From positions 992,139 to 1,056,138 of the forward strand of contig NZ_JAASRM010000001.1 in assembly GCF_011761565.1 (NCBI RefSeq): a DNA stretch of 64,000 bases. Reading direction: 5' to 3'. The notes beneath the pieces were generated by a model. The model saw only the letters and a list, made by a program, of their open reading frames with translations, was not told the DNA's origin and searched no databases. Position 1 is the stretch's first letter. Each line of letters opens with the position of its first letter. This stretch comes from Rhizomicrobium palustre (GTDB taxonomy: Bacteria > Pseudomonadota > Alphaproteobacteria > Micropepsales > Micropepsaceae). The position numbers and the translations under genes were made by a program. This document shows, piece by piece, positions 3,158 to 40,037 of the stretch.

Positions 3158-4750
3158 TCAAAATTTCAGCCCATATAGATGAGCGAGGACTTTCTCAATT
3201 GTCTTTCGGTAATTCACAATATCTGCGTCAAGTACGTCGAGCGTTGCACGTTCATGGATGAGCTTATTTCTCATCAGATAATAATGCTTCGCTTTCCCAA
3301 TAAGCGTGTCCGGGATCTTGATCGGCAATTTCGCCTGCACCGTATTCATAACCTCTGTCCGGGACCTAAAGATACCCGCGATACGGCTGTCCGTGTATTC
3401 TCTTGCAGGAAATAGATCATCGCGGTGAACGATGAACTCCTTGAGAGCGATTTCGAAATTACTGTCTAGAATGATCAAAGCCAGTCGGTTCTTCGTTGCG
3501 TAGGTCTGACGTGAGACCAATTCTACCGCTGCCATCGCTTCGACAAGCCCTAGTGTCCACGGGTGATCGCCGAGGACTTTCTTGTTACGCAGCTTTAGCT
3601 TTTCGGCGCGAGATTTATTCCGCTTGGGCAGATCTGGCATATGAAGGAAGTGTCCCGCATCCACATCCTCGGGCCTCATAATCTCCATAGAGCCGGACTT
3701 GTGTCGGAAAACATTTCCATCCCAATCATCCTTTAGGCGCCGAGATAGTTTGCTGAAGTAGCTTGTTAGCTGGACGACCGTTGGCCTCACCCGCTGAAAT
3801 GCGGGGTGACTAAAATTGATCCCGTTTTTGCTGCTGTTCCAAGGCATCAAGATTGCGGGTCCAGTTAGACGAACAATCACACGGCTGAGCGAAATGTCCC
3901 AATGAGGAACCCCCGCCTCAAGTGAGTTCAGATAGCCGACTTCCCTGCTCTTTAGCTCCTTAACAATCAGGCGATCGTTACAATAGAAATAGACACCGTA
4001 GTTGTCCTCCTCTGGATTGCGATCAACGATAAGACCGCCCGTAATATCTACTTGGATTACCCCATCGTCGCCAAAGCGTGAGGCAAAGACAGCTCTTCGT
4101 GGAACTTGGTTTGGTGGGTAGGACCAGTTTTCAAACGAGATCGCTTGAACAGGTGCCTCATTCAGCAAAATCAGACAGCCATCACCAATAAATCGGCAGT
4201 ATGTTTGCCCAAGATGAATGGCGATCTCCTCTAGATCGTGCTGGATAAAGGGTTTTCTGAGGTGTGATATGTGAACTCGCGTTGTTCCCGAGGGAATATC
4301 TGGCACTTCATACCCACGCAAATGCCAGTCGTCGTGCCCTAGCCACGCTTTATCAATTTCAATTTGATGCGTGTTCTCGCCTCGATGGTGGGTCGTGATT
4401 TCAACTCTTTCGCCGAGCGCGATGCTGGCGCGTTTGCTACCCACTCCGAATATTCCGACGATCTCGGCATGAGGATCGTTTTTACTACCACCCGGGGCAA
4501 GCAGAAATCGGAGATCCTCTACCCCAACGCCGCCGGCATTATCGGAGACGTATATGAGTTGGCGTGCAACGTCGAGCACAACAGAAACAACAAGCTGCTT
4601 CCGCTTGCTACCCTGTCGCCAAATGTCGATAGCGTTGTCGACGAGTTCGCATAACGCGGTCTTCAGGTCATAGTCACTCATTATCGACCAGAACATCCGC
4701 TTGTCAGGAGTTCCGTCGATTAGGGCCACTTCTCTTTTTTCTGTGGTCAT
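3158..4750 (-). CDS. GHKL (Hsp90/MutL-like) ATPase with C-terminal HEPN-type motif
   Basis: A 530-residue protein. The first ~170 residues carry the GHKL ATP-binding fold: N-box ELVDNAID near residue 37, a G1-like VSDNAGGVG and a G2-like GIFGVGSKRAS. The middle looks like the transducer part of MutL/Hsp90-type proteins. Residues ~490-530 contain RNKLIH (Arg494, His499), the R-N-x3-H signature of HEPN domains, which are often RNases in toxins and defence proteins. It lies just downstream of the giant DUF4011 helicase gene on the same strand (207 bp gap). The neighbourhood is relatively AT-rich compared with the trb region, consistent with acquired cargo. I infer a sensor ATPase coupled to an RNase-like effector, probably anti-phage. 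A plain MutL-like ATPase with a chance RN...H motif remains possible. Confidence 0.6.
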   Translation of the reverse strand: MTTEKREVALIDGTPDKRMFWSIMSDYDLKTALCELVDNAIDIWRQGSKRKQLVVSVVLDVARQLIYVSDNAGGVGVEDLRFLLAPGGSKNDPHAEIVGIFGVGSKRASIALGERVEITTHHRGENTHQIEIDKAWLGHDDWHLRGYEVPDIPSGTTRVHISHLRKPFIQHDLEEIAIHLGQTYCRFIGDGCLILLNEAPVQAISFENWSYPPNQVPRRAVFASRFGDDGVIQVDITGGLIVDRNPEEDNYGVYFYCNDRLIVKELKSREVGYLNSLEAGVPHWDISLSRVIVRLTGPAILMPWNSSKNGINFSHPAFQRVRPTVVQLTSYFSKLSRRLKDDWDGNVFRHKSGSMEIMRPEDVDAGHFLHMPDLPKRNKSRAEKLKLRNKKVLGDHPWTLGLVEAMAAVELVSRQTYATKNRLALIILDSNFEIALKEFIVHRDDLFPAREYTDSRIAGIFRSRTEVMNTVQAKLPIKIPDTLIGKAKHYYLMRNKLIHERATLDVLDADIVNYRKTIEKVLAHLYGLKF

Positions 4751-4956: not shown

Positions 4957-7900
4957 TCACTTCCTGCTGGTAATGAAGCTCGCCATTTGACTAAGCGACA
5001 GCTCCTGTGTCGAATTGGCGACACGAACATAAAAACGCTCCGCCGTATTCCCTCCTCGATCCGGCAGTTTAACAACCACACCCGTCGGCGACTTCTGGAC
5101 ATCAACCCTGCAGAGTGTCTTGCCTGCCAAAATCGGAAAGCTCAGTCGTAGGCGCGTAGCGTGAAAAGCGGGACCAAAATGTGAATTGATGAGGTGTGTC
5201 AAATGCAGCTCGAACTTGTCGCGATTTCCGCCGCTCAAAGTTGAGATGTCACTTTCGATACCCGTGATAATGCCGTCATCACGAACACCAATTAACAGGA
5301 TTCCGCCAGCTTGGTTCGTAAAGCCCGCAATAGTCTTTATGACAACGTCTTCGAGTTTGCGGTTTACGGCATTCATCTCTACATCCCACCGCAACGTCTG
5401 CTTAAATTCGAGACGTTCGCTCTCGCCACTGTCAATCAGGGCATGTAACGCGTCTTGAGGTAGCGTTTGAGGAACTGGACGGTCGGCTGCTGGTCCCGCA
5501 ACAAGAAGCTCATTCTGCACAACCAAATCCCTGCTCGAAATACCACGCGATATGGCGGCATCAATGACGGACTTTAGTTGAGCGCTAGTCGCCTTGAAGC
5601 CAAGGTTACGCGAGACAAATTGAATTACTTGGTCTGGTGTAGCTCCAAAGTTTGCCTGCACCACCTGAAGAATCGCAGCACGCAATTCTGTAGGTGGAAG
5701 CATCTCAGGCTTGCGCAATCCCAACGAGCGCACCTCAGCCCTATTCCGAACTGAGGGATCAGCTCCTGGCAACCACAAGAAATTGTCCTCGCGATACATA
5801 TGCCCCTGCGCTGTTGAAGCAATTACCGCCCGCTCCACAGCCTCTCGAATACGCCCGCCAGCTCGTTCAATACCCCAAGCATCCCGTAGGCGAGCTATCA
5901 CCTCGTCCACGTGCACGGGTCCTTCGCGAGAAACAACTTGTTCTGCGAGATAACTCAAAACACCGGTTGGTGTCAGATGGAGCTCCTCTGGTGCGGCAGG
6001 GGGTTTCCGAATGCAAGCCTCCTGATAGGGGCCATTAAATGGAGCGGCATCCTCCTCTAGCTCCGCCAAACCAACTTCGGTGACGTTCTCACGTTCGATC
6101 GTGACCACATCTACCGGCACCGCGCGCGGCGCAGTTTTACGTTGAGCATCACGCGTCCGAAGCTCCGCTTTTGCCTCTTCTATCTTAGCGATTAATCGCT
6201 CCAATTCTTCGCCAGGCCTCTGAAACCAATCCGCACTCCATATCCTATGGATGTACCAACCGTGATCTTCCAACACGGCTCGCCGAATACGGTCCCGATC
6301 TCGCGCTGATCGGGCTGCACGATAAGATGCCCCGTCACACTCCACACCGAGAATATAGCGCCCAGGTTGATCGGGATCGGCAACCGCCACATCAATGAAG
6401 AGACCTGCAATCCCCACATTACGATGAACCTGATATCCTTTATCCTGGAGTGCCCTAGCGATTTGGGCCTCCAACACCCCCTCGTGATCGCGGCCAGTCG
6501 CTTCTACATGTGAAAGACGCCCCGTTCTGGCAAAGTGCAAAAAGAGACGAAAAGCGAGGATACCCTTGCGAGTGGATGCAAAATCGGGGTCGATATCCTC
6601 GTCCGTGATGGATGAGAAAACCTCACAGCGACGCTTCGCCCGGCTGATCAAAACGTTGAGACGCCGGTCACCGCCGGTGGATCCCAACGGTCCAAACCTC
6701 ATCGCTACCTTTCCACCAACAGCGCTAGCCGCGTAACCGACAGAGATGAAGATAACGTCGCGCTCGTCGCCCTGCACGTTCTCCAAATTCTTGATAAAGA
6801 ACGGTTCGGCCGTTTGTTGCTGGAAGAACGCATCTTGTTCAGGTGCAAGTCCACGGCGCAACAATTCAAGTTGTTCAAGAACTGCGCGCCGCTGCTGAGA
6901 CGAAAATGCGACGACGCCTAATGACTGATCTGCATTGGTGAGGGCATGCTCTATAATCGCCTTAGCAACAGCCTTTGCTTCAATGATATTAGTGCGCGTT
7001 TTTCCTGTATCGAATAAACCGTCCGCAACATGATGAAACCGCAATCCCATTCCAGCTTCGTTCGTATAAGGGCTAGGAACTATAAAAAGTTTATTTTCGT
7101 AGAACTGCGAGTTAGAAACAGCGATCAGTGATTGATGGCGGCTGCGATAATGCCAACGCAACATGCGCGTTGGCAGACCGCGTGCTGTGAATAATCCCAG
7201 AATACTTTCTATGTCTGCGACTTTAGCGGCATCTTCATCGTCGTCGTTGTCAGCGGCCGCCGTTGTCATCTTGCTGAAGAAAGTTGTGGGTGGCAATTGC
7301 TGGGGGTCACCAACGACAACTACCTGCTTGCAACGCGCCACAGCGCCAAACGCATCTACTGGCTGAATCTGACTGGCTTCGTCCATGACCAAAAGGTCGA
7401 ACTCGATAGCCCCTGGCGGTAAAAATTGAGCCACAGATAACGGGCTTACCATTAATACCGGTTTTAGGGCCTGAATCGCTGGAGCCGCCTTCTCCATCAA
7501 CTGTCGAATAGGCATGTGCCCGCGCTTCCTGGCGATCTCACCACGTAGAATTTTTAGAGGTCCCGCAGTTCCGCCTTGCGTAGGTGGAATACGCCGATGA
7601 TGCGCACGGGCAACGTCCAACCTCGATTGCCGGATACGCATCTGATCGAGATCTGAGAATTCACTGACAAGCTTATTATGTAGGAAACCATTAAAGCGAG
7701 CGAGCTCGGGATCCAGGCGTATCATATCATTGAAGATTGCTTCAAATACGCTCAGTTCGAAAAGGGGGAGCACTTCTTCAGTGGCAATAGCCCCCTGCTC
7801 CAAACCTTCTACGAATTCACCTAAGCCATCTTTTTGGGCGGCATCTGCTCGGTCACGATATTCGATCCACTTCGGTAGAGCCTCGCCAGAAACCACCCAA

Positions 7901-10900
7901 GTGCCAAGGCGACGAGTTAGCCGCTCAAGATAGCAACTCGACGGTTCGGCATGCCCCAAGGCCAGCACTCGATCCAAGCGAATAGCATCACAAAACGCCT
8001 TAATACGTCGCACAAAAGTATCACGATCTTGACTTAGGACAGCGACGCGCTTTGCGATATCAATGCGGTCCGGAATTCTACTGGCTAAATGACGAATATC
8101 AGCATTTTCTTTGATCCAATGGGCTGCATTACCAAGCACCGTCCAATTTGAGTTCGCCCCTCCCCAAGCGCCAGCGAACGCTTCTTTCCCGAGTGCATCA
8201 GCAGAAACCAATCCGGCCAAGCACCTCTGCCCATCTCCTAGAGCATCAAGAATGCGGCGCCGTTCGGGTAATTGCGATGGCACGGATATGAAGATGGACT
8301 TACAAATGGCATCAGTCGCAGCCAATCGGGTGAGCCTTGGTAGCGCTGCCGCGAGATCAGCCTGAAGAATCGATTGGGCCCCTCCAAAAAATGGCTTAGC
8401 TGCGCGATCCAGTGCCAACCAAAGCCGATTCAGCTCCGATTTTAATTCGTTCAAATCTTTTGAGATTTTGGAGCTTAACTCCCGCAGACTATCCTGGTCA
8501 GGTTTGCGTGCGGCGATCAACCGTGGCTCAGCGCCCAAATCACCGAGACTGCGCATCCATGCAACGAGCGCCCGAAGTGGCGCTGGAGCAGAACGCTCTC
8601 CCCTCCAATGAGAGCCGAACGCTTTGCGTCCGAGATCATCCCCCTTCTGAATCTCTTCGAGAGCTGCTTGGCCCCGACATAGCGCATCCAGTAAAGGAAG
8701 TATCTCTTCAAGCTTAAGCTTGGGATCAGCAAGCACCGAGCGGACAAGTTTATTCGCCTTACGCCAATCACCGTTGAAGATACGGAACACACTGTTACCA
8801 TGCGACGCTAAAGTGGCACGAGCGGCAGAGAAATCCTGCCTCCACGCCGCATCCACAAGCCGCTGTCCGATTACTAGTTTTGCCTCATCAAATTTAAATA
8901 CAGCTTCCGCAAGATCCCCGGCCTGTTCTACTCCCGCGTTCCAAAGTTCCGCGGCAAATGCCTCCGGACTCGCAGATGGTGCGCAAGCAACGCGGTCTGC
9001 GATAAGAGTAAGGCGATCGATACTGCGCAGCGTGGAACAGGCAGTGGTGCCAAGTTCCTGAGAAAGCCTCTCCACATCACGAATAAGATCGGGCACGTGT
9101 TCAACAATGCGGGCGAGATCTGAAAAATCCTCCAATCGAAACTCATCAGGAAGATCGCTGAGGTCCAGGTTCAAACCGGTAGCGTCTGTAGCCCATCCTT
9201 CACTTGAAACGGTACCTGCCAAAGCCTCAGTGCACCGGGCATAAGATGCGCCGGCTGCAACGAGTGCATCAATCATATCAACCTGATTAATCCAGCACGC
9301 GGAGGCTAAAGCGCCTGGATCCAGATTCGGTGCACTGGCGATACGATCAGCCAATTCCTGAAGACGATTAAAATCGGCTAGCGTCACAGGGGAGGAAATT
9401 TCCAAGAGAACGGCAAGTTCGTCGCCGCGAGCTCGTAGCTGGCATAAGATCTCGGAAAGCTCAGGAAGCGGTTGAAGTATCCTGTCTCTATCCATTGGTG
9501 AGATAGGGCCTAGCTGCACGCCATGCCAGGGGTGCTCCAGAGGAGGACCGATCTCAGCTATCCGCTCTGTAAGCTCCTTGAGAAGCTCATAACGCAGCCG
9601 AAAGTCTTCTGTCGACCAACGAGCTGCCTGGGGAAGAAATATATCAGACGCCCTACGCTCATCATTTCTCAGACGCACAAGATGGCCAATTACTTGATAA
9701 GGAGTAAGCTCTGACGGCTTGTGAAGGCAGTGCATGCGGTCAGCATGATCATTAAGCCGGTCTCTAGCCTCCGTCAGCCGCCGAAGTAGTAAATCGGCTT
9801 CCTCTCCCTTTGGCGCACCGAGCTGCCAAGTGCGTTCCAATTCTCTAATAACATCGCGCTTTTTTGCTTTATGGCTATGTAACTCAAGGCAGGCATCACC
9901 CACACCAGTGCTATCAAGACGCCGTTTCACAACCTCTAAAGCCGCCATTTTTTCAGCAACAAATAGTACTGTTTTTCCGTCGGCGACTGCTGAAGCAATG
10001 ATATTGGCGATCGTTTGTGACTTTCCAGTACCTGGAGGTCCCTGAATAACAAGGTTGCGCCCACGCCGAACTTCATGGACAGCGAGCGTCTGAGAACTAT
10101 CGCTATCAACAATATGTAACATCTCAGAGGGCGCGATTTTCCGATCAATCACCTCATCTTCTGCGATCAGATTATCGTCGTTATCAAATCCATCCGTTAG
10201 CAGGGCTTTCACTAATGGAAGCTCGGTGATTTTGGATTTCGGCGGCCAAATATCGGGGTCTAGGTCCCGATACATGAGGAACTTGGCGAATGAAAAGAAG
10301 CCAAGAACTATATCGTTCGGCTGCACAGTCCAGCCAGGCTTTGCTGAAACCGCTTCTGAAACTGCAGCCGCATAGTCTGAGGGTTTGAAATCGTCTTCGG
10401 CCACAAATGCAGGAAGCCGAATACCGTGAAGACGATCTAGAAATGCTTCTAACGAGAGATTGGAAGCGACGTCTTCTTGGCGCCAGCGAAGTTTAAACTT
10501 TTCGGCAGCATTACCTCGTTCCAATGAGACAGGAACAAGCACAAGAGGAGCAAATCTCGTATTTTCCGCGTTTGTCGGATCAACCCACTTGAGCGTTCCC
10601 AGTGCGAGAAACAGGATGTTAACGCCCTGCTCTTCCTCAAGTGTCCGAGAGTCCGTATACAGGCTGAGAAGTCGTTTTTGGAGACCTGCTGGTGTCAGGC
10701 GCGTTTGAAGACGCGTATCAATATGTCTATTAGCGACCCCACGCTCATCAACGCCATCATCTTCGGGCTGAGCAAGCTCGTCGATCTCTTCATCGTCGGC
10801 GTCATCTGCTCCAACTGCGGACTTCCCAGCTAGAAAGGTGAACGGTCTTCCGCCCGTTACAAGTAGCCGAAACACTTCGTCCGGTAGTTCGTCGATGATT

Positions 10901-11067
10901 TCCAGTGTTTGCGCGCTCTTGGCCGACCGCGGCATGTTGAGTAATCGGTTTCTAGCTGAAAGGTCGAGAAGCTCTGTACGAGCGCGTTCGAGCTTGGTAT
11001 CGGCTGGCAGACTGCTCTGAAGAATCGAGACAGCCTCCCCTTCCGTAGCTTCAACAACGTCTAGCAT
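4957..11067 (-). CDS. DUF4011 / SF1 helicase / Vsr-like nuclease / DUF3320 / AlbA_2 giant protein
   Basis: A 2036-residue multidomain protein (GTG at 11097 would add ten residues). Domains in order: DUF4011 near residues 25-200 (LLDLSARNRLLN); an SF1 DNA2/Upf1-like helicase split by a long insertion, with Walker A GPPGTGKS at ~343-350 and Walker B VMDEAS at Asp1229-Glu1230, plus helicase motifs QGDERDVIFIS and LNVLISRAK; a Vsr/DUF559-like endonuclease around 1500-1620 with LGVECDGASY (Glu1576); a DUF3320 segment near 1700-1750; and an AlbA_2 (Schlafen-type) domain at ~1875-2030 with ERLEFKQTLRW and GGILLIGVRDDG. The DUF4011-helicase-Vsr order corresponds to the known 'Hhe' type of defence protein; the AlbA_2 tail is an addition. 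The role is inferred to be recognition and cleavage of invading nucleic acid. It is upstream of the GHKL-HEPN gene on the same strand. Confidence 0.8.
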   Translation of the reverse strand: MLDVVEATEGEAVSILQSSLPADTKLERARTELLDLSARNRLLNMPRSAKSAQTLEIIDELPDEVFRLLVTGGRPFTFLAGKSAVGADDADDEEIDELAQPEDDGVDERGVANRHIDTRLQTRLTPAGLQKRLLSLYTDSRTLEEEQGVNILFLALGTLKWVDPTNAENTRFAPLVLVPVSLERGNAAEKFKLRWRQEDVASNLSLEAFLDRLHGIRLPAFVAEDDFKPSDYAAAVSEAVSAKPGWTVQPNDIVLGFFSFAKFLMYRDLDPDIWPPKSKITELPLVKALLTDGFDNDDNLIAEDEVIDRKIAPSEMLHIVDSDSSQTLAVHEVRRGRNLVIQGPPGTGKSQTIANIIASAVADGKTVLFVAEKMAALEVVKRRLDSTGVGDACLELHSHKAKKRDVIRELERTWQLGAPKGEEADLLLRRLTEARDRLNDHADRMHCLHKPSELTPYQVIGHLVRLRNDERRASDIFLPQAARWSTEDFRLRYELLKELTERIAEIGPPLEHPWHGVQLGPISPMDRDRILQPLPELSEILCQLRARGDELAVLLEISSPVTLADFNRLQELADRIASAPNLDPGALASACWINQVDMIDALVAAGASYARCTEALAGTVSSEGWATDATGLNLDLSDLPDEFRLEDFSDLARIVEHVPDLIRDVERLSQELGTTACSTLRSIDRLTLIADRVACAPSASPEAFAAELWNAGVEQAGDLAEAVFKFDEAKLVIGQRLVDAAWRQDFSAARATLASHGNSVFRIFNGDWRKANKLVRSVLADPKLKLEEILPLLDALCRGQAALEEIQKGDDLGRKAFGSHWRGERSAPAPLRALVAWMRSLGDLGAEPRLIAARKPDQDSLRELSSKISKDLNELKSELNRLWLALDRAAKPFFGGAQSILQADLAAALPRLTRLAATDAICKSIFISVPSQLPERRRILDALGDGQRCLAGLVSADALGKEAFAGAWGGANSNWTVLGNAAHWIKENADIRHLASRIPDRIDIAKRVAVLSQDRDTFVRRIKAFCDAIRLDRVLALGHAEPSSCYLERLTRRLGTWVVSGEALPKWIEYRDRADAAQKDGLGEFVEGLEQGAIATEEVLPLFELSVFEAIFNDMIRLDPELARFNGFLHNKLVSEFSDLDQMRIRQSRLDVARAHHRRIPPTQGGTAGPLKILRGEIARKRGHMPIRQLMEKAAPAIQALKPVLMVSPLSVAQFLPPGAIEFDLLVMDEASQIQPVDAFGAVARCKQVVVVGDPQQLPPTTFFSKMTTAAADNDDDEDAAKVADIESILGLFTARGLPTRMLRWHYRSRHQSLIAVSNSQFYENKLFIVPSPYTNEAGMGLRFHHVADGLFDTGKTRTNIIEAKAVAKAIIEHALTNADQSLGVVAFSSQQRRAVLEQLELLRRGLAPEQDAFFQQQTAEPFFIKNLENVQGDERDVIFISVGYAASAVGGKVAMRFGPLGSTGGDRRLNVLISRAKRRCEVFSSITDEDIDPDFASTRKGILAFRLFLHFARTGRLSHVEATGRDHEGVLEAQIARALQDKGYQVHRNVGIAGLFIDVAVADPDQPGRYILGVECDGASYRAARSARDRDRIRRAVLEDHGWYIHRIWSADWFQRPGEELERLIAKIEEAKAELRTRDAQRKTAPRAVPVDVVTIERENVTEVGLAELEEDAAPFNGPYQEACIRKPPAAPEELHLTPTGVLSYLAEQVVSREGPVHVDEVIARLRDAWGIERAGGRIREAVERAVIASTAQGHMYREDNFLWLPGADPSVRNRAEVRSLGLRKPEMLPPTELRAAILQVVQANFGATPDQVIQFVSRNLGFKATSAQLKSVIDAAISRGISSRDLVVQNELLVAGPAADRPVPQTLPQDALHALIDSGESERLEFKQTLRWDVEMNAVNRKLEDVVIKTIAGFTNQAGGILLIGVRDDGIITGIESDISTLSGGNRDKFELHLTHLINSHFGPAFHATRLRLSFPILAGKTLCRVDVQKSPTGVVVKLPDRGGNTAERFYVRVANSTQELSLSQMASFITSRK

Positions 11068-11426
11068 TCTTCGATAGCCCACCCCTGCAACCCGCACATG
11101 TATCTAGCACCGACTTCTAACGCAGGGGCAAGAGCTAAGGAGTTCGAGACGAACATGGATGAAAGGGTCATCAGCCAATAGAACGTCGGTTAGCCGCCTG
11201 ACCGCCATCTGATAATGATAATAAATCCAATGATTTAGGGACCCGCTAGACTGCGGAGAAGATACGTTGCGAAGCAGTTTCCCGTAGACCGGCATGGTGG
11301 CGTGCCGAACAGTGAGATCAACCCGACACAGGACAGTTTTTGTGCGTAGGAATGCCCCAACGAAATCCGTGAACGAGGGCCGAAGCTCTCCAGTGGTTTT
11401 CTAAGCAATACCTTAGGCGGATGAGG
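11068..11426. other. 359 bp without a supported gene
   Basis: Lies between two minus-strand genes. A 63-codon minus frame (11104-11295) is present but shows no recognisable motif. It is likely to hold the promoter of the DUF4011 gene; I cannot mark one with confidence. Confidence 0.3.
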
Positions 11427-33093: not shown

Positions 33094-34059
33094 CTAGAAC
33101 GGGATTTCGTCGTCCATTTCCTCGACCGGTATGGACAGTTTCGTATGGACTTGTAACGCCTTGGTCTGTGGCATCGGTGGCGAATTTTTCCGCAAGAACT
33201 GCTCAATAACGAACTGGTTGACGGCTCCGGCCATATGCACTGCAAGTTCGCCATAAGCGCGAGAGGGGGTGACCACGTTCTGACCTTGACCATGGCCGCC
33301 CAATTCATTGCGCAAGATCACGACACCTTGCAGCGCCTTTGCAACTGCCTTAGCCTTATCGGCCGGAATATCATCCATATTTCCGTCTTTGATGAACTGC
33401 GCAACTAGTTGCGTCGCATCTCCGGTCGCCATTCCAGTGGCTGCCTTCAGCGTGCTTTCCACGCTATGCGAGGCGTAGCTGATCGCATCGCGAATTGCCC
33501 CGTCGGTCAGCTTGTCGCGCGCGGTATGGAACTCATCTGATGCGCCCTTAAACTGGGGCCCGCCCAAGAGTTGAACGGTACGTTCCAAGACTTCACCATC
33601 CAGAAACTCAGAATCGATTTTGAAAAAAGCGCCATCAGAGAGCCGCCATGGGCAGCCGAAATCTGTGAAGGCGTCATTAATCGCGCGCTGATAGAGCGAG
33701 AGGTGGTCATCATCCTGCTCAGCCTCCACGATCTCCAATAGGTCCAACACGTCCGGCCCAGGTCCTGCGATTACGACCTGCTGGAGATCCAATGGCTCGC
33801 GGAATCCATCCCGGTAGCTATCTTTGCCCAGCAACCGAGAATAAGACGCCTCTGCCTGCTCCAGGATAGTAGAATTATGCACCCAGTTCGGATTGTCGTC
33901 CGTACTATAATATACCGGCTCATTGAACGCCCTCAGAGTCGACCATAGCCGGTGCCGCAAATTTTCCGGAATGGCTGGGGGTGTCAGGCGGCCATCGGAC
34001 AGCGATTTGGCGTGGCGCAGCGAAAATGGGCGAAGCGAAATCAGCGGTCGGTCAGACAT
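33094..34059 (-). CDS. abortive-infection type protein with C-terminal HEPN (Abi_C-like) domain
   Basis: 321 residues from ATG 34059; a GTG at 34104 would add 15. The C-terminal ~110 residues resemble the Abi_C/HEPN domain, with LRNELGGHG containing the R-N...H signature (His256). This is the usual RNase site of HEPN effectors. The first ~170 residues are mixed and resemble the N-terminal region of STM4504/CBY_0614-type proteins. Convergent with the HNH gene (119 bp apart) and divergent from the nuclease pair at 34.2 kb. Likely a stand-alone abortive infection protein; the activator it responds to is unknown. Confidence 0.65.
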   Translation of the reverse strand: MSDRPLISLRPFSLRHAKSLSDGRLTPPAIPENLRHRLWSTLRAFNEPVYYSTDDNPNWVHNSTILEQAEASYSRLLGKDSYRDGFREPLDLQQVVIAGPGPDVLDLLEIVEAEQDDDHLSLYQRAINDAFTDFGCPWRLSDGAFFKIDSEFLDGEVLERTVQLLGGPQFKGASDEFHTARDKLTDGAIRDAISYASHSVESTLKAATGMATGDATQLVAQFIKDGNMDDIPADKAKAVAKALQGVVILRNELGGHGQGQNVVTPSRAYGELAVHMAGAVNQFVIEQFLRKNSPPMPQTKALQVHTKLSIPVEEMDDEIPF

Positions 34060-34183
34060 GTAATGCTCAGGCAGTGTCCGTGGTAGCCCATTTTGAAGCT
34101 TCACGAGGGTTTCATAAGGCCAGTATACTCGGTTCCCATTTGGTTCCCAAGTGGCCCTATTTCTCTAGCCCCTTTGCGCTCTT

Positions 34184-35644: not shown

Positions 35645-37624
35645 CTACATGCCATGCATCTCCGGCCCGCTGCGCTGGCGGCCGAGTGACCAGGAGATCG
35701 TGTTCTCCCGCGCAATTCCGGAGACGGATTTTCCGAGATTGCGTTCCAGCACGGGCCGCCAAGGAACGAGCGTAAAGTCCCGGCTCCGTTCAACAATAGC
35801 AAATCGCCCACTCACAAGATCAACGGAACGGCGATAAACACCTTCGATGTGGTCGCCAGCCTTGGTTTCGCTATAGGCCAGCCGCAACTCATCCGAAAGC
35901 TGACCAGCCGCGCGCGTCAGATCGCGCCGCCGCAAGAGAGACAAAAGATTAGCACGATAGAGGGTGCGCCCAGCCTCGTCTTCTCGCGCCAGATCTTCTT
36001 CGATCAGCCATTGGCGACGACGCACCAGAGCGTCATTGAGATCACGGCCAAAACCTGCCTCGTGGATGGCAATCTCATTGCGGGCCACAAGCGTGCGATC
36101 CAACCAAGTGGCACCATCAGCCGTGACTTGGCGGTCGAGCGTGTTCGTGGAAAGGATTTCGAGCTGCACCGGTGCTAGGCGGGCTAGTTTGCGCTCGAAC
36201 GCAGCGGCATTCTCCAGATGGTCTCGGCCAATGACCCAGGTGCCGTCCCGATCCCGCTCGACGTTCCCCACCAAGCGGCGCATCGCCTCTAGCCGGCGCA
36301 CATGGGTCTCGGCAAAATCTTGGGTCGCGCTCGGATCATAGCGCAAATGAAGATCGATACTGTAGCGCCCTTCATTGGCCGAGGCGATATCTGCAATGGT
36401 GCGATCTACGTCCCGCGCCCCGGCTGGCTTGGGCCGAACAGCAATGATCGAGCCCTCACGGGTCGGATTGCCGTCATCGGCTTTACCAATCTCGACATAA
36501 TGGGCCCGTCCATCGGCCGCATCGACGACAAGATAGAACCGGTCATTGATCTCATCGGATAGCCCGCGCGCCACTACCCGCCCGATCAAAGGCTTGGCGT
36601 CCTGTTCCGCCGGATCGTAGATCGCATAATCCTGAGCACCGCGCATGATAGCATTGCCAGCCATCTCGCGATGCAGCCTGCGAATGATATCGCCCCGCTC
36701 GCCCATCTGGCGCAAGGTGTTTTCGAGATCAGGCGCCAAACGCCATTGCCCGGGGCGCTCTTCTTCAGCCAAACCAAGGCGCTTCAGCTTTTGCAGCCGC
36801 CCTGTGCACAAGGTCTGCTGGAAGGGATCGCGCGGACCGGTCGACCGAACCACCCCATCGTCACCGACATCCTTCAGCAATCGCCGGTCGAGACTAGTGA
36901 AACGCTCTTGCTCCACCTCGCGCCGCAACCGGTCTTCGATCTCCAAATCGGTGCGCGGACCCAGATCGAGGGTGACGATTTCCGCGGCGCGTTCGCGAAT
37001 GCCGTGGGAGATGTATTCCCGAGCGATGACGAGATCCTCACCTTTGTCATCCTTGCCGCGCAGGACGATATGGGTGTGAGGGTGGCCGGTGTTGAAGTGG
37101 TTGGCCGCCACCCAATCAAGCTTTGTTCCAAGATCGGCTTCCATCTGGGCCATTAGGCGGCGGATGAAGGGCTTCAGATCCTCATATTGCTCGGCATCTT
37201 CCGCCGCGACGATAAAGCGGAATTGGTGGCGGTCGCCGTCGCAGCGTTCCAAAAACTCTTTTCCATCCACCCGATCCCGTTCGGCACTATAGAGCTGACC
37301 CGGCTCACCCTCGCGCGTCACCCCATCGCGCTGGATATAGCGCAGATGCGCTTTGGCAGCGCCCAGACCCTTGCCGGCAAGTTTGGTGAAGCGCGACTTG
37401 GTCACGACCCGGCGCTGACGATAAGCGCCGCAACGATCCCGCGCTGCGAGCACCCTGCCGATCCCGGCGCCGCGACCGATCCGGCTGCCGTGAAACGTCC
37501 CTTTCCCCTTCGCGCTGCGGCCCGCGAGATTGGCGGTGTGCAACACGCGCTGCAAATAGCTCCGCTCGCGCGGAGCCCGGCTGCCGATTTTTCCGAGATG
37601 GGGTTCGAATTCGTCGTCGCGCAT
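35645..37624 (-). CDS. DUF3363 relaxase / VirD2-like mobilisation protein
   Basis: 659-residue relaxase that nicks oriT and pilots the transferred strand. ATG 37624 is preceded by AAGGAG at six bases. The nuclease domain spans residues ~60-250, with AKAHLRYIQRDG and the metal-binding His motif GHPHTHIVLRG (His181, 183, 185). The DUF3363 region follows to the C-terminus. The N-terminus is basic. Upstream lie four phased short repeats (37.67-37.79 kb), a plausible control or oriT region. The product ends with the segment SGPEMHGM. Confidence 0.9.
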   Translation of the reverse strand: MRDDEFEPHLGKIGSRAPRERSYLQRVLHTANLAGRSAKGKGTFHGSRIGRGAGIGRVLAARDRCGAYRQRRVVTKSRFTKLAGKGLGAAKAHLRYIQRDGVTREGEPGQLYSAERDRVDGKEFLERCDGDRHQFRFIVAAEDAEQYEDLKPFIRRLMAQMEADLGTKLDWVAANHFNTGHPHTHIVLRGKDDKGEDLVIAREYISHGIRERAAEIVTLDLGPRTDLEIEDRLRREVEQERFTSLDRRLLKDVGDDGVVRSTGPRDPFQQTLCTGRLQKLKRLGLAEEERPGQWRLAPDLENTLRQMGERGDIIRRLHREMAGNAIMRGAQDYAIYDPAEQDAKPLIGRVVARGLSDEINDRFYLVVDAADGRAHYVEIGKADDGNPTREGSIIAVRPKPAGARDVDRTIADIASANEGRYSIDLHLRYDPSATQDFAETHVRRLEAMRRLVGNVERDRDGTWVIGRDHLENAAAFERKLARLAPVQLEILSTNTLDRQVTADGATWLDRTLVARNEIAIHEAGFGRDLNDALVRRRQWLIEEDLAREDEAGRTLYRANLLSLLRRRDLTRAAGQLSDELRLAYSETKAGDHIEGVYRRSVDLVSGRFAIVERSRDFTLVPWRPVLERNLGKSVSGIARENTISWSLGRQRSGPEMHGM

Positions 37625-37671
37625 AGAAACTCCTTCCACGCCATCAACGCGCCGATCCCCGCAAACCGCAA

Positions 37672-37789
37672 TTGGTGCCAAGACCGTCTAGCAATCTCAG
37701 CAGGTTGGCTGCCAGTTGGTGCCATGCTTCTCAGGCCTGGTGCCAAAATTCTCGATGTGCAGGCAGGAAAACGGCGCCATTTGGTGCCG
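37672..37789. repeat. four helically phased TTGGTGCCA repeats upstream of the relaxase gene
   Basis: Copies start at 37672 (TTGGTGCCA), 37716 (TTGGTGCCA), 37737 (CTGGTGCCA) and 37781 (TTGGTGCCG), all in the same direction, with spacings 44, 21 and 44 bp. These are close to whole numbers of helical turns, so bound proteins would sit on one face. A related TTGGCTGCCA lies at 37705. The array lies between the relaxase and DUF932 genes, where an oriT or an operator would be expected. No canonical IncP-type nick sequence was found. Confidence 0.6.
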
Positions 37790-37988: not shown

Positions 37989-39188
37989 TTAGGCGACTTG
38001 TTCCATCAATTTCTTGGCCTTGATTTCGAGGTCAAGACGGGCGTCTTGATGGGTTTTGTGACGAGCCAAAGCTGTGATGCCTTGCACAAAATCATAGATG
38101 CTTTCGGGCTTCTTGCCCTCTTCGTTGAGGACCATTTCCACGATTTTGGCGGTCTCCGGTTTGGAAAATCCCCGTTTGCGCAAGAAGCTCTCGCGGTCCT
38201 CGTCATTGCGAGCGACAATCTGTTCCCGTGCCGCCACGATGCCAGCAACGAAGCTCTGGGAACTGGAATTGGCAAAGCTCTCCAGCGCCGGTTCGGCTTC
38301 CAGGGCAAAACGATTGGCGGCGAATTTCGAATGCCGGATGCTGATTTCTTCGAACCTTTCGGTGCCCCAAAGATTGCGGTTCTGACACACCGCACGAAGA
38401 TAGAAAGAAGCGAGACCGAGCGTTTTGCTGCCGACTTCGCTGTTCCAGGCGTAAAATCCCCGAAAGTAAAGATCAGGTGAGCCGTCCGCCAGACACCCCG
38501 CTTCAATGGGATGGGTGTCATCCACCAAAAACAGAAACACGTCGCGGTCGCTGGCGTAGAGCGTGGTGGTTTCCTTGCTCACATCGACAAACGGATTGTG
38601 TGTCATGGTTGCCCAATCAAGCACGCCGGGCACTTTCCAGCGGGTGTCGCCGGTGCCGTTGCCTGCAATTTTCTGCACCGCGGCAACCAATTCGTGGTCC
38701 CAGATGCGGCCGTAATCGGGACCGGTGAGGGCGCGAAGCTCTATTTTGCCGTCTTCGGCTTCCAAGGTTTTGATGAGTTCGGCGCGATGGCTGGAAAGCC
38801 CGTATTGCAGATTGATCCCCGCCAAAGGGGCGGGCAGTCCGCGCATATATGAGGATGGCGCACCGACAAGGCTGCACAATTGCCCAAAACTCCAATGGGT
38901 CGGGGAAACGGGTTCCTCGCGTCCCGGCAGAACAAGGGAAAGCCGTTCGCTATCATCGCGGGCGGCTTCAACCTGCACGTCCCGGCTTTCCACGGTGCGG
39001 GTGGTGGCGTGATCGGCGCGGGATTTCACGCGGTCATAAAGCTCCGACAAGCTCAAATAGCGCTCGTCATCAGGCCGGGAAAACCATTCGGACGAAACCC
39101 GTTCGATGCGTTGGCCGCGCGAAATATCCACGCGATAGCTGCCGGTGACAGAGTGTTCCTTGAGAGGATTGAGGGGTTCGATAGTCAT
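37989..39188 (-). CDS. DUF932 family protein
   Basis: 399-residue member of the DUF932 family (phage/plasmid-associated, function unknown, sometimes linked to protection of incoming DNA). Family-like blocks: WSFGQLCSLVGAPSSYMRGL, LRALTGPDYGRIWDHEL, and VFLFLVDDTHPIE. ATG 39188 has AAAGGAG eight bases upstream. The frame is open upstream to 39311, but that part overlaps a strongly structured region and lacks a start signal. Terminated by the hairpin at 37942-37980. Confidence 0.85.
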   Translation of the reverse strand: MTIEPLNPLKEHSVTGSYRVDISRGQRIERVSSEWFSRPDDERYLSLSELYDRVKSRADHATTRTVESRDVQVEAARDDSERLSLVLPGREEPVSPTHWSFGQLCSLVGAPSSYMRGLPAPLAGINLQYGLSSHRAELIKTLEAEDGKIELRALTGPDYGRIWDHELVAAVQKIAGNGTGDTRWKVPGVLDWATMTHNPFVDVSKETTTLYASDRDVFLFLVDDTHPIEAGCLADGSPDLYFRGFYAWNSEVGSKTLGLASFYLRAVCQNRNLWGTERFEEISIRHSKFAANRFALEAEPALESFANSSSQSFVAGIVAAREQIVARNDEDRESFLRKRGFSKPETAKIVEMVLNEEGKKPESIYDFVQGITALARHKTHQDARLDLEIKAKKLMEQVA

Positions 39189-39275
39189 TGGGTGATCTCC
39201 TTTGAAGGGCTGGGTTCGGCGCGAGCCGAAGCGCCGCGCTGAACCCCTGCCCGTCGGCGAGACCGGGTGTAGCAA

Positions 39276-39413
39276 GGGCAAGGGCGGGCGCGGCGGAGGG
39301 GGATCACCCACCCGAAGGGCCCCGCAGGGCCTCGCAGCGCGAAGCGCGAGAGGTGGGGAGACCGCCGCGCCCGTTCATCGAAGACCCTTGCCCGCGCGAG
39401 GGGCAGCGCCCCT
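39276..39413 (-). ncRNA. candidate structured RNA / leader of the DUF932 gene
   Basis: A long closing helix is built from 39276-39296 and 39362-39393: a perfect 12-bp stem (39285-39296 with 39362-39373) and a perfect 9-bp stem (39276-39284 with 39385-39393), joined by an 11-nt one-sided bulge. Inside are a 6-bp stem (39307-39312 with 39352-39357), a 5-bp hairpin with a 4-nt loop (39318-39331), and a 5-bp hairpin (39331-39335 with 39346-39350). A further hairpin at 39399-39413 (AGGGGC-agc-GCCCCT) lies beside it. It is 88 nt ahead of the DUF932 start, between the transglycosylase and DUF932. It could be a cis-regulatory leader, an independent RNA, or a single-strand DNA hairpin used in transfer; strand is assumed. 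Confidence 0.5.
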
Positions 39414-39452
39414 TAGCATTCCAAGAAGAAACTCTGCCGTTCGGTCTTTTGA

Positions 39453-40037
39453 TCAGCGCGGCGAGGAGGACAACGGCACGAACAGACCACCGGTATCGGT
39501 GTTAATGATACGCGATGGTTCATGTCTCATGTGGGGTGACGGACCGGATGCGATCCGCGCAAGATACGCCTCGGTCTCCACCGGAAGCGGCTTTGTTCCT
39601 GCCAAATAAGCGCGATAGCGTGTGGGTCCGGCATTGTAGGCTGCGAACATGCCTTCCGTGCCGAATTCCTCCCACAGCATTCGCAAATAGGCAGCGCCAG
39701 CGAGAATATTGTCGTGCGGATCGTAGGGATCATCGCCTAGCTTCAGGCGCTGTCGCATCACAAGCCAAGTCTCCGGCATGAGCTGCATCAAGCCCATCGC
39801 GCCTTTGGGCGACGTGATCGGATTGCCGTTCAACGTTAAACGGCCACCGCTTTCCGCCGCCATGACACGGGCGATCCAGTCTTCCGGGATTGCGAACCGC
39901 CGCGCCGCTTCGCCGATATAACTTTGCCAGGACGCAACCGCAGTATCCGCAAAAGCCGATTTGTTCGGCGGTGCCGGACAAGCGAAAGGCGGCGTAAAAA
40001 ACAGCACGCAGGCCGCGGCGGCGCTCACCAAATCCAT
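39453..40037 (-). CDS. lytic transglycosylase (VirB1-like)
   Basis: 194-residue SLT-type muramidase that opens peptidoglycan locally for the transfer apparatus. A short hydrophobic leader (LVSAAAACVLFFTPPFACP) suggests export. The catalytic Glu is in MAAESGGR, followed by GAMGLMQLMPETW, NILAGAAYLRML and AAYNAG, the classical SLT motifs. The start overlaps the 3' end of the traF-like gene by 13 bp. Confidence 0.9.
   Translation of the reverse strand: MDLVSAAAACVLFFTPPFACPAPPNKSAFADTAVASWQSYIGEAARRFAIPEDWIARVMAAESGGRLTLNGNPITSPKGAMGLMQLMPETWLVMRQRLKLGDDPYDPHDNILAGAAYLRMLWEEFGTEGMFAAYNAGPTRYRAYLAGTKPLPVETEAYLARIASGPSPHMRHEPSRIINTDTGGLFVPLSSSPR

Follow-up and report, generated by a model that had tools for sequence, protein, structure and literature searches.

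A conserved folded leader, mainly of alphaproteobacterial conjugative elements, may act on the strand that is predicted to lead into the recipient

A folded element of about 210 nt was found ahead of a DUF932-like gene in a stretch of 64,000 nt from Rhizomicrobium palustre (contig NZ_JAASRM010000001.1, positions 992,139 to 1,056,138; hereafter the window). The base changes among its copies suggest folding on whichever DNA strand is predicted to reach the new cell first, and the element may switch anti-restriction genes on during transfer. On balance, the element is probably a single-strand DNA promoter-like leader (or start element), working like the Frpo element of F, for anti-restriction genes on entry. 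This Frpo-like working is proposed because of four features: the fold on the non-mRNA strand, the near-fixed spacing to the start codon, the anti-restriction genes that follow, and the orientation toward the relaxase gene.

The element in the window

The mRNA strand (window minus) is called sense, and the opposite strand (window plus) antisense; the plus strand is the template strand of the DUF932-like gene and the predicted T-strand. A sequence-only reading had described a candidate large folded RNA or ssDNA at 39276-39413, with perfect helices of 12 and 9 bp closing over further stems. Both helices (P2 and P1 in Table 1) are perfect and lie at the claimed positions, and the additional stems were found where that reading had placed them. 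Its limits were too narrow, as the core hairpin and the terminal hairpin also belong to the conserved element. No protein-coding explanation had been seen, and the element is indeed intergenic: 264 bases separate the lytic transglycosylase and DUF932-like genes, both of which lie on the minus strand. The fold had also been judged too long and exact to be ordinary, and the region does beat dinucleotide shuffles on either strand (RNA folding, z = -3.7 for plus and -3.2 for minus). Single-stranded DNA folding of the plus strand (39230-39420) gave z = -3.5, which was reached in 0 of 200 shuffles. The gene order of the ICE is as follows: HTH (rdfS-like), traF, SLT, element, DUF932, relaxase, VirD4, and Trb.

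Table 1. Features of the element and of the adjoining genes, in window coordinates
Feature	Coordinates	Strand	Remarks
Whole element	39206-39418	+	Predicted functional fold on + strand, from homologues, alignment, strand bias and ssDNA fold
H1 hairpin, sense AGGGGCGCTGCCCCT	39399-39413	.	Element end distal to gene
P1 helix, sense 5' arm GGGCAAGGG	39385-39393	.	Pairs with 39276-39284
P1 helix, sense 3' arm CCCTTGCCC	39276-39284	.	Pairs with 39385-39393
P2 helix, sense 5' arm CGGGCGCGGCGG	39362-39373	.	Double changes in 7 of 9 aligned pairs
P2 helix, sense 3' arm CCGCCGCGCCCG	39285-39296	.	Pairs with 39362-39373
P3 helix, sense 5' arm CCCACC	39352-39357	.	From alignment
P3 helix, sense 3' arm GGTGGG	39307-39312	.	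From alignment
Core hairpin CCCGGTCTCGCCGACGGGCA, loop TCGCC, 20 nt	39248-39267	-	From homologues and alignment
Terminal hairpin	39212-39246	-	Adjoins Shine-Dalgarno; sequence highly variable among copies, hairpin kept, no strand bias
Shine-Dalgarno AAAGGAG of DUF932-like gene	39197-39203	-	From sequence
DUF932-like gene served by element, 399 aa	37989-39188	-	ATG at 39188
RlxS-type relaxase (DUF3363, PF11843)	35645-37681	-	Downstream; oriT expected just upstream of relaxase gene, from ICEMlSymR7A gene order (PMC11963761)
Lytic transglycosylase gene	39453-40037	-	Other flank of element

An Rfam scan, which the sequence-only reading had recommended, matched no family, either in the window at gathering and permissive thresholds or in 18 related loci at the gathering threshold. 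The DUF3085 RNA motif (RF02959) is cis-regulatory and likewise leader-type, and overlaps the element weakly on the same strand; however, the element scored 14.4 bits (E = 4.8) against a gathering score of 40.6, and RF02959 had no match among the 18 related loci. In the plasmid records carrying annotation, no annotated feature lies under the element, and no earlier description in alphaproteobacteria or rhizobia was found in the open-licence literature. The element family is unannotated and without an Rfam match.

Copies, subtypes and genes served

Of the 96 genomes of the family to which the window belongs, 13 had BLAST homologues, some of them in several copies. The exact 19-base core (CCGGTCTCGCCGACGGGCA) matched at least 118 DNA stretches, from which about 20 unrelated coding or weak matches were removed. 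At least 12 exact seed matches fell within coding genes (of Streptomyces, Nocardia, Mycobacterium, and others) and were dropped by eye, their flanks being without the element. Judged from their sequences, the remaining matches are one leader family, with the following order: H1 hairpin, P1, variable hairpin, P2, P3, core hairpin, terminal hairpin, Shine-Dalgarno, and start codon. About 95 copies were counted among the matches listed, mostly on alphaproteobacterial ICEs and plasmids; the non-alphaproteobacterial copies among these matches were single ones in Nitrosospira, Ideonella, Pseudomonas, and Solidesulfovibrio. The core hairpin is changed to CCCGCCTCGCCGGCGGG in Caulobacter plasmids, which is a paired change.

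The copies were divided into three subtypes by their upstream part (A, which is window-like, B, and C); the core is common to all. In subtype C (L043, L053, L067, L085, L089, and L107), an AT-rich stretch CCATTTATTCCACGG with GGCATAAACGG replaces the GC-rich P2 of subtype A, and might be a promoter-like variant. A copy in Rhizobium beringeri (L153:20001-20090) has a changed core (CCGCGATCTCG) without an annotated same-strand gene directly downstream; this copy is probably a decaying relic.

The leading region of conjugative elements is marked by anti-defence, methylase and similar genes (PMC11541004). Anti-defence or establishment genes of the kind served by Frpo-type elements also follow the element, including ParB-like, DUF932, methylase, ArdA, ArdC, and DUF2958 genes. 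Among the matches listed, 96 downstream proteins were clustered: 41 were ParB-like, 15 and 14 fell into two DUF932-type groups, 9 were N6/N4 DNA methylases, 7 ArdA, 6 ArdC, 3 DUF2958, and 1 other. The window gene falls in the second of the DUF932 groups, whose PF06067 matches stayed under the cut-off (18.5 bits for the window protein, with a cut-off of 23). The distance from the core to the start codon is 57-79 nt in all but one copy among the matches listed.

Covariation and the strand of wobble pairs

Compensatory base changes, proposed earlier as a check on the fold, are present. In 33 aligned subtype A copies, 27 pairs were counted, and changes on both sides occurred in 14 of them. Double-changed cells numbered 110, whereas shuffles averaged 39 and 0 of 500 reached the observed number. 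Pairing fell to 35-58% when the partners were slid by 1-3 columns. The fold is therefore conserved, given the excess of compensatory changes over shuffles and the drop in pairing on sliding. The H1 hairpin shows a G-C/A-T exchange in the alignment, and in 15 of the 33 copies its outermost pair reads G-T on antisense.

The two strands differ in their wobble pairs. Over the 27 pairs, standard pairing accounted for 96.6% of cells on antisense versus 92.5% on sense; G-T cells numbered 44 in 9 columns on antisense versus 6 in 4 columns on sense. With flank-anchored registers, the distinct P2 and P3 arm pairs gave 27 A.C versus 5 G.T on sense (p = 1.1e-4); counted per alignment column and not per sequence, the figures were 11 versus 3 (p = 0.057). 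In the shortest copy (L170:11856-11997), a 20-bp stem departs from standard pairing only at three sense A.C pairs, which are G-T on antisense. The evidence leans to folding as ssDNA, on the non-mRNA strand. The wobble bias is established for subtype A only; the strand count for subtype B was 3 versus 2, with too few informative pairs.

The automatic register search for P1 was set aside as ambiguous: CCCTTG is repeated there, and the counts mix registers. The bias shrinks when P1 is included, to 74 versus 41 in one count and 60 versus 40 (p = 0.057) in another. The strand claim therefore rests on the fixed-register P2 and P3 counts and on the alignment counts. The RNAalifold energy was lower for antisense than for sense (-47.6 versus -31.8); it was not used as evidence because antisense energies were lower in the tRNA control too. 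The bias expected from folding on antisense could also arise if transferred single strands were deaminated. The terminal hairpin has no strand bias (40 versus 37), which argues against such a general mutational cause.

The main alternative is an ordinary cis-regulatory mRNA leader, in which a sense 5' UTR fold would control translation or elongation of the anti-restriction genes. Several features agree with it: the 5' leader position, the near-fixed distance to the Shine-Dalgarno and start codon, the terminal and core hairpins abutting the Shine-Dalgarno, and a sense strand that also folds well and keeps standard pairs in 92.5% of cells. However, the wobble pairs lie mainly on the other strand, and an RNA should tolerate G-U, not A-C, on sense. 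The tRNAs of the same loci, read on their own strand, gave 24 G.T and 0 A.C, although the ARAGORN model itself favours G.T. The element also matches no known riboswitch or Rfam family. The mRNA leader explains the position of the element, not the strand of its wobble pairs, and we consider it unlikely, while still deserving serious weight.

Orientation, comparison with Frpo and further alternatives

The stretches with an R7A-type RlxS relaxase were uniform (23 of 23): among the matches listed, all 30 copies lie upstream of rlxS and are co-directional with it. In multi-copy stretches other than the Caulobacter plasmids, the copies share one direction in 11 of 11 cases among the matches listed. 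The relaxase is usually the last to enter the recipient (PMC11541004); therefore the side carrying the elements is expected to lead, with antisense as the T-strand, as we infer for the window's element. Co-direction with the operon is also expected of an ordinary leader.

A nic-like site was found on two related Caulobacter plasmids only, pCB4 and p2, where an RP4-like nic (CCTATCCTG/CCC) stands just upstream of mobC. By the RP4 convention, the T-strand of both plasmids presumably runs from nic toward ParAB, ArdC, and ParB. The copies ahead of ParB, DUF3768, and ArdC point back at nic, as expected. The nic-adjoining copy on pCB4 (L151:18914-19075, plus) and the matching copy on p2 (L150:10294-10454, minus) point away from oriT, and the orientation of this copy counts against the ssDNA promoter reading. 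The RP4-nic-like sequence CCTATCCTGCCC occurs on these plasmids at L151:18773 (plus) and L150:10588 (minus), and is a candidate oriT.

Frpo of F is a single-strand promoter that expresses genes on entry, and early anti-defence expression from incoming single strands was established with enterobacterial plasmids, F and ColIb-P9 among them (PMC9849209, PMC11541004). The element resembles the Frpo/ssi sequences of the F and ColIb-P9 leading regions in several respects: long hairpins ahead of genes typical of leading regions, the presence of several copies on some mobile elements, adjoining anti-defence genes, and, if antisense is the T-strand, a gene orientation that for most copies would allow reading from the entering strand (PMC11541004, PMC9849209). 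Unlike these, it is GC-rich, has several stems and a conserved core hairpin, and occurs mainly on ICEs and plasmids of Alphaproteobacteria. It does not qualify as an Frpo family member: a search for Frpo-type -35/-10 boxes with a sigma70 model gave 0 sigma70-like sites in window 39150-39560, both strands included, and 5,426 E. coli genomes (chromosomes and their plasmids), through which sequence similarity to Frpo was judged, held no match to the element.

In the proposed single-strand promoter-like working, the T-strand of the ICE or plasmid would enter the recipient with its 5' end first. At each element the strand opposite the mRNA would form a long hairpin with bulges (P1-P2-P3) between H1 and the core hairpin. 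The folded element might then recruit RNA polymerase or primase, and the adjoining anti-restriction or establishment gene would be transcribed toward oriT, ahead of second-strand synthesis. We infer both the start of transcription on single-stranded DNA at the element and the enzyme responsible. A bolder proposal, put forward tentatively and with less than even confidence, is that the family may be a separate, widespread class of ssDNA promoters in Alphaproteobacteria, without -35/-10 boxes and recognised by their three-dimensional fold and conserved hairpin, which would fire anti-restriction genes on conjugative entry. If the element does the same job as Frpo, it would reveal the means by which symbiosis ICEs and other mobile elements of Alphaproteobacteria are protected as they enter, would provide a sequence tag for their leading-region anti-restriction genes, and would allow a test of whether a single-strand promoter needs the classical boxes.

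The same strand bias and leading-side location would also suit a single-strand initiation (priming) site, in which the T-strand fold recruits primase or polymerase for second-strand synthesis and the position ahead of genes is secondary. The title of the original Frpo paper (Masai and Arai 1997) names primer RNA synthesis besides transcription. The tight start-codon spacing, the consistent pairing with anti-restriction genes, and the several copies on some elements speak against a priming site, which appears improbable. Slightly less probable again is regulation of the adjoining gene by a double-strand DNA operator, a cruciform or an antisense RNA gene. Blocks that hardly vary, among them GGTCTCGCCGACGGGCA and GATCCCCCTCC, could be sites for a protein, and an antisense RNA would likewise put G-U on the antisense strand; however, double-strand sites leave the G-T versus A-C asymmetry unexplained, and the promoter of an antisense RNA would be needed in the gene-adjoining region, which is the variable part.

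An identity of the element with the ICE's oriT is very improbable and was rejected on copy number and position: in ICEMlSymR7A, rdfS-traF-msi107 lies upstream of oriT and rlxS (PMC11963761), and the window copy does occupy the same syntenic interval, from the lytic transglycosylase gene to rlxS, but an oriT should be a single site at the relaxase gene with a nic, whereas genomes carry several copies (a single plasmid has as many as four), most of them lying kilobases away from the relaxase and ahead of other genes, and the RP4-like nic of pCB4 and p2 is separate from the element. The sequence-only reading is supported in part: it was right about a genuine conserved fold on an ICE, and in leaving open both RNA or ssDNA and a link to transfer. 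The element is neither a lone regulatory RNA nor an oriT hairpin.

Two other regions of the window were noted. Between the ICE relaxase and VirD4 genes, 33097-34104 (minus) has weak matches to AbiJ_NTD4 (33.7 bits, with a cut-off of 34) and Abi_C, and is a possible abortive-infection cargo gene. Beyond the transfer genes, a very large ORF of 2046 aa (4957-11097, minus) has a neighbouring ORF of 530 aa (3158-4750, minus).
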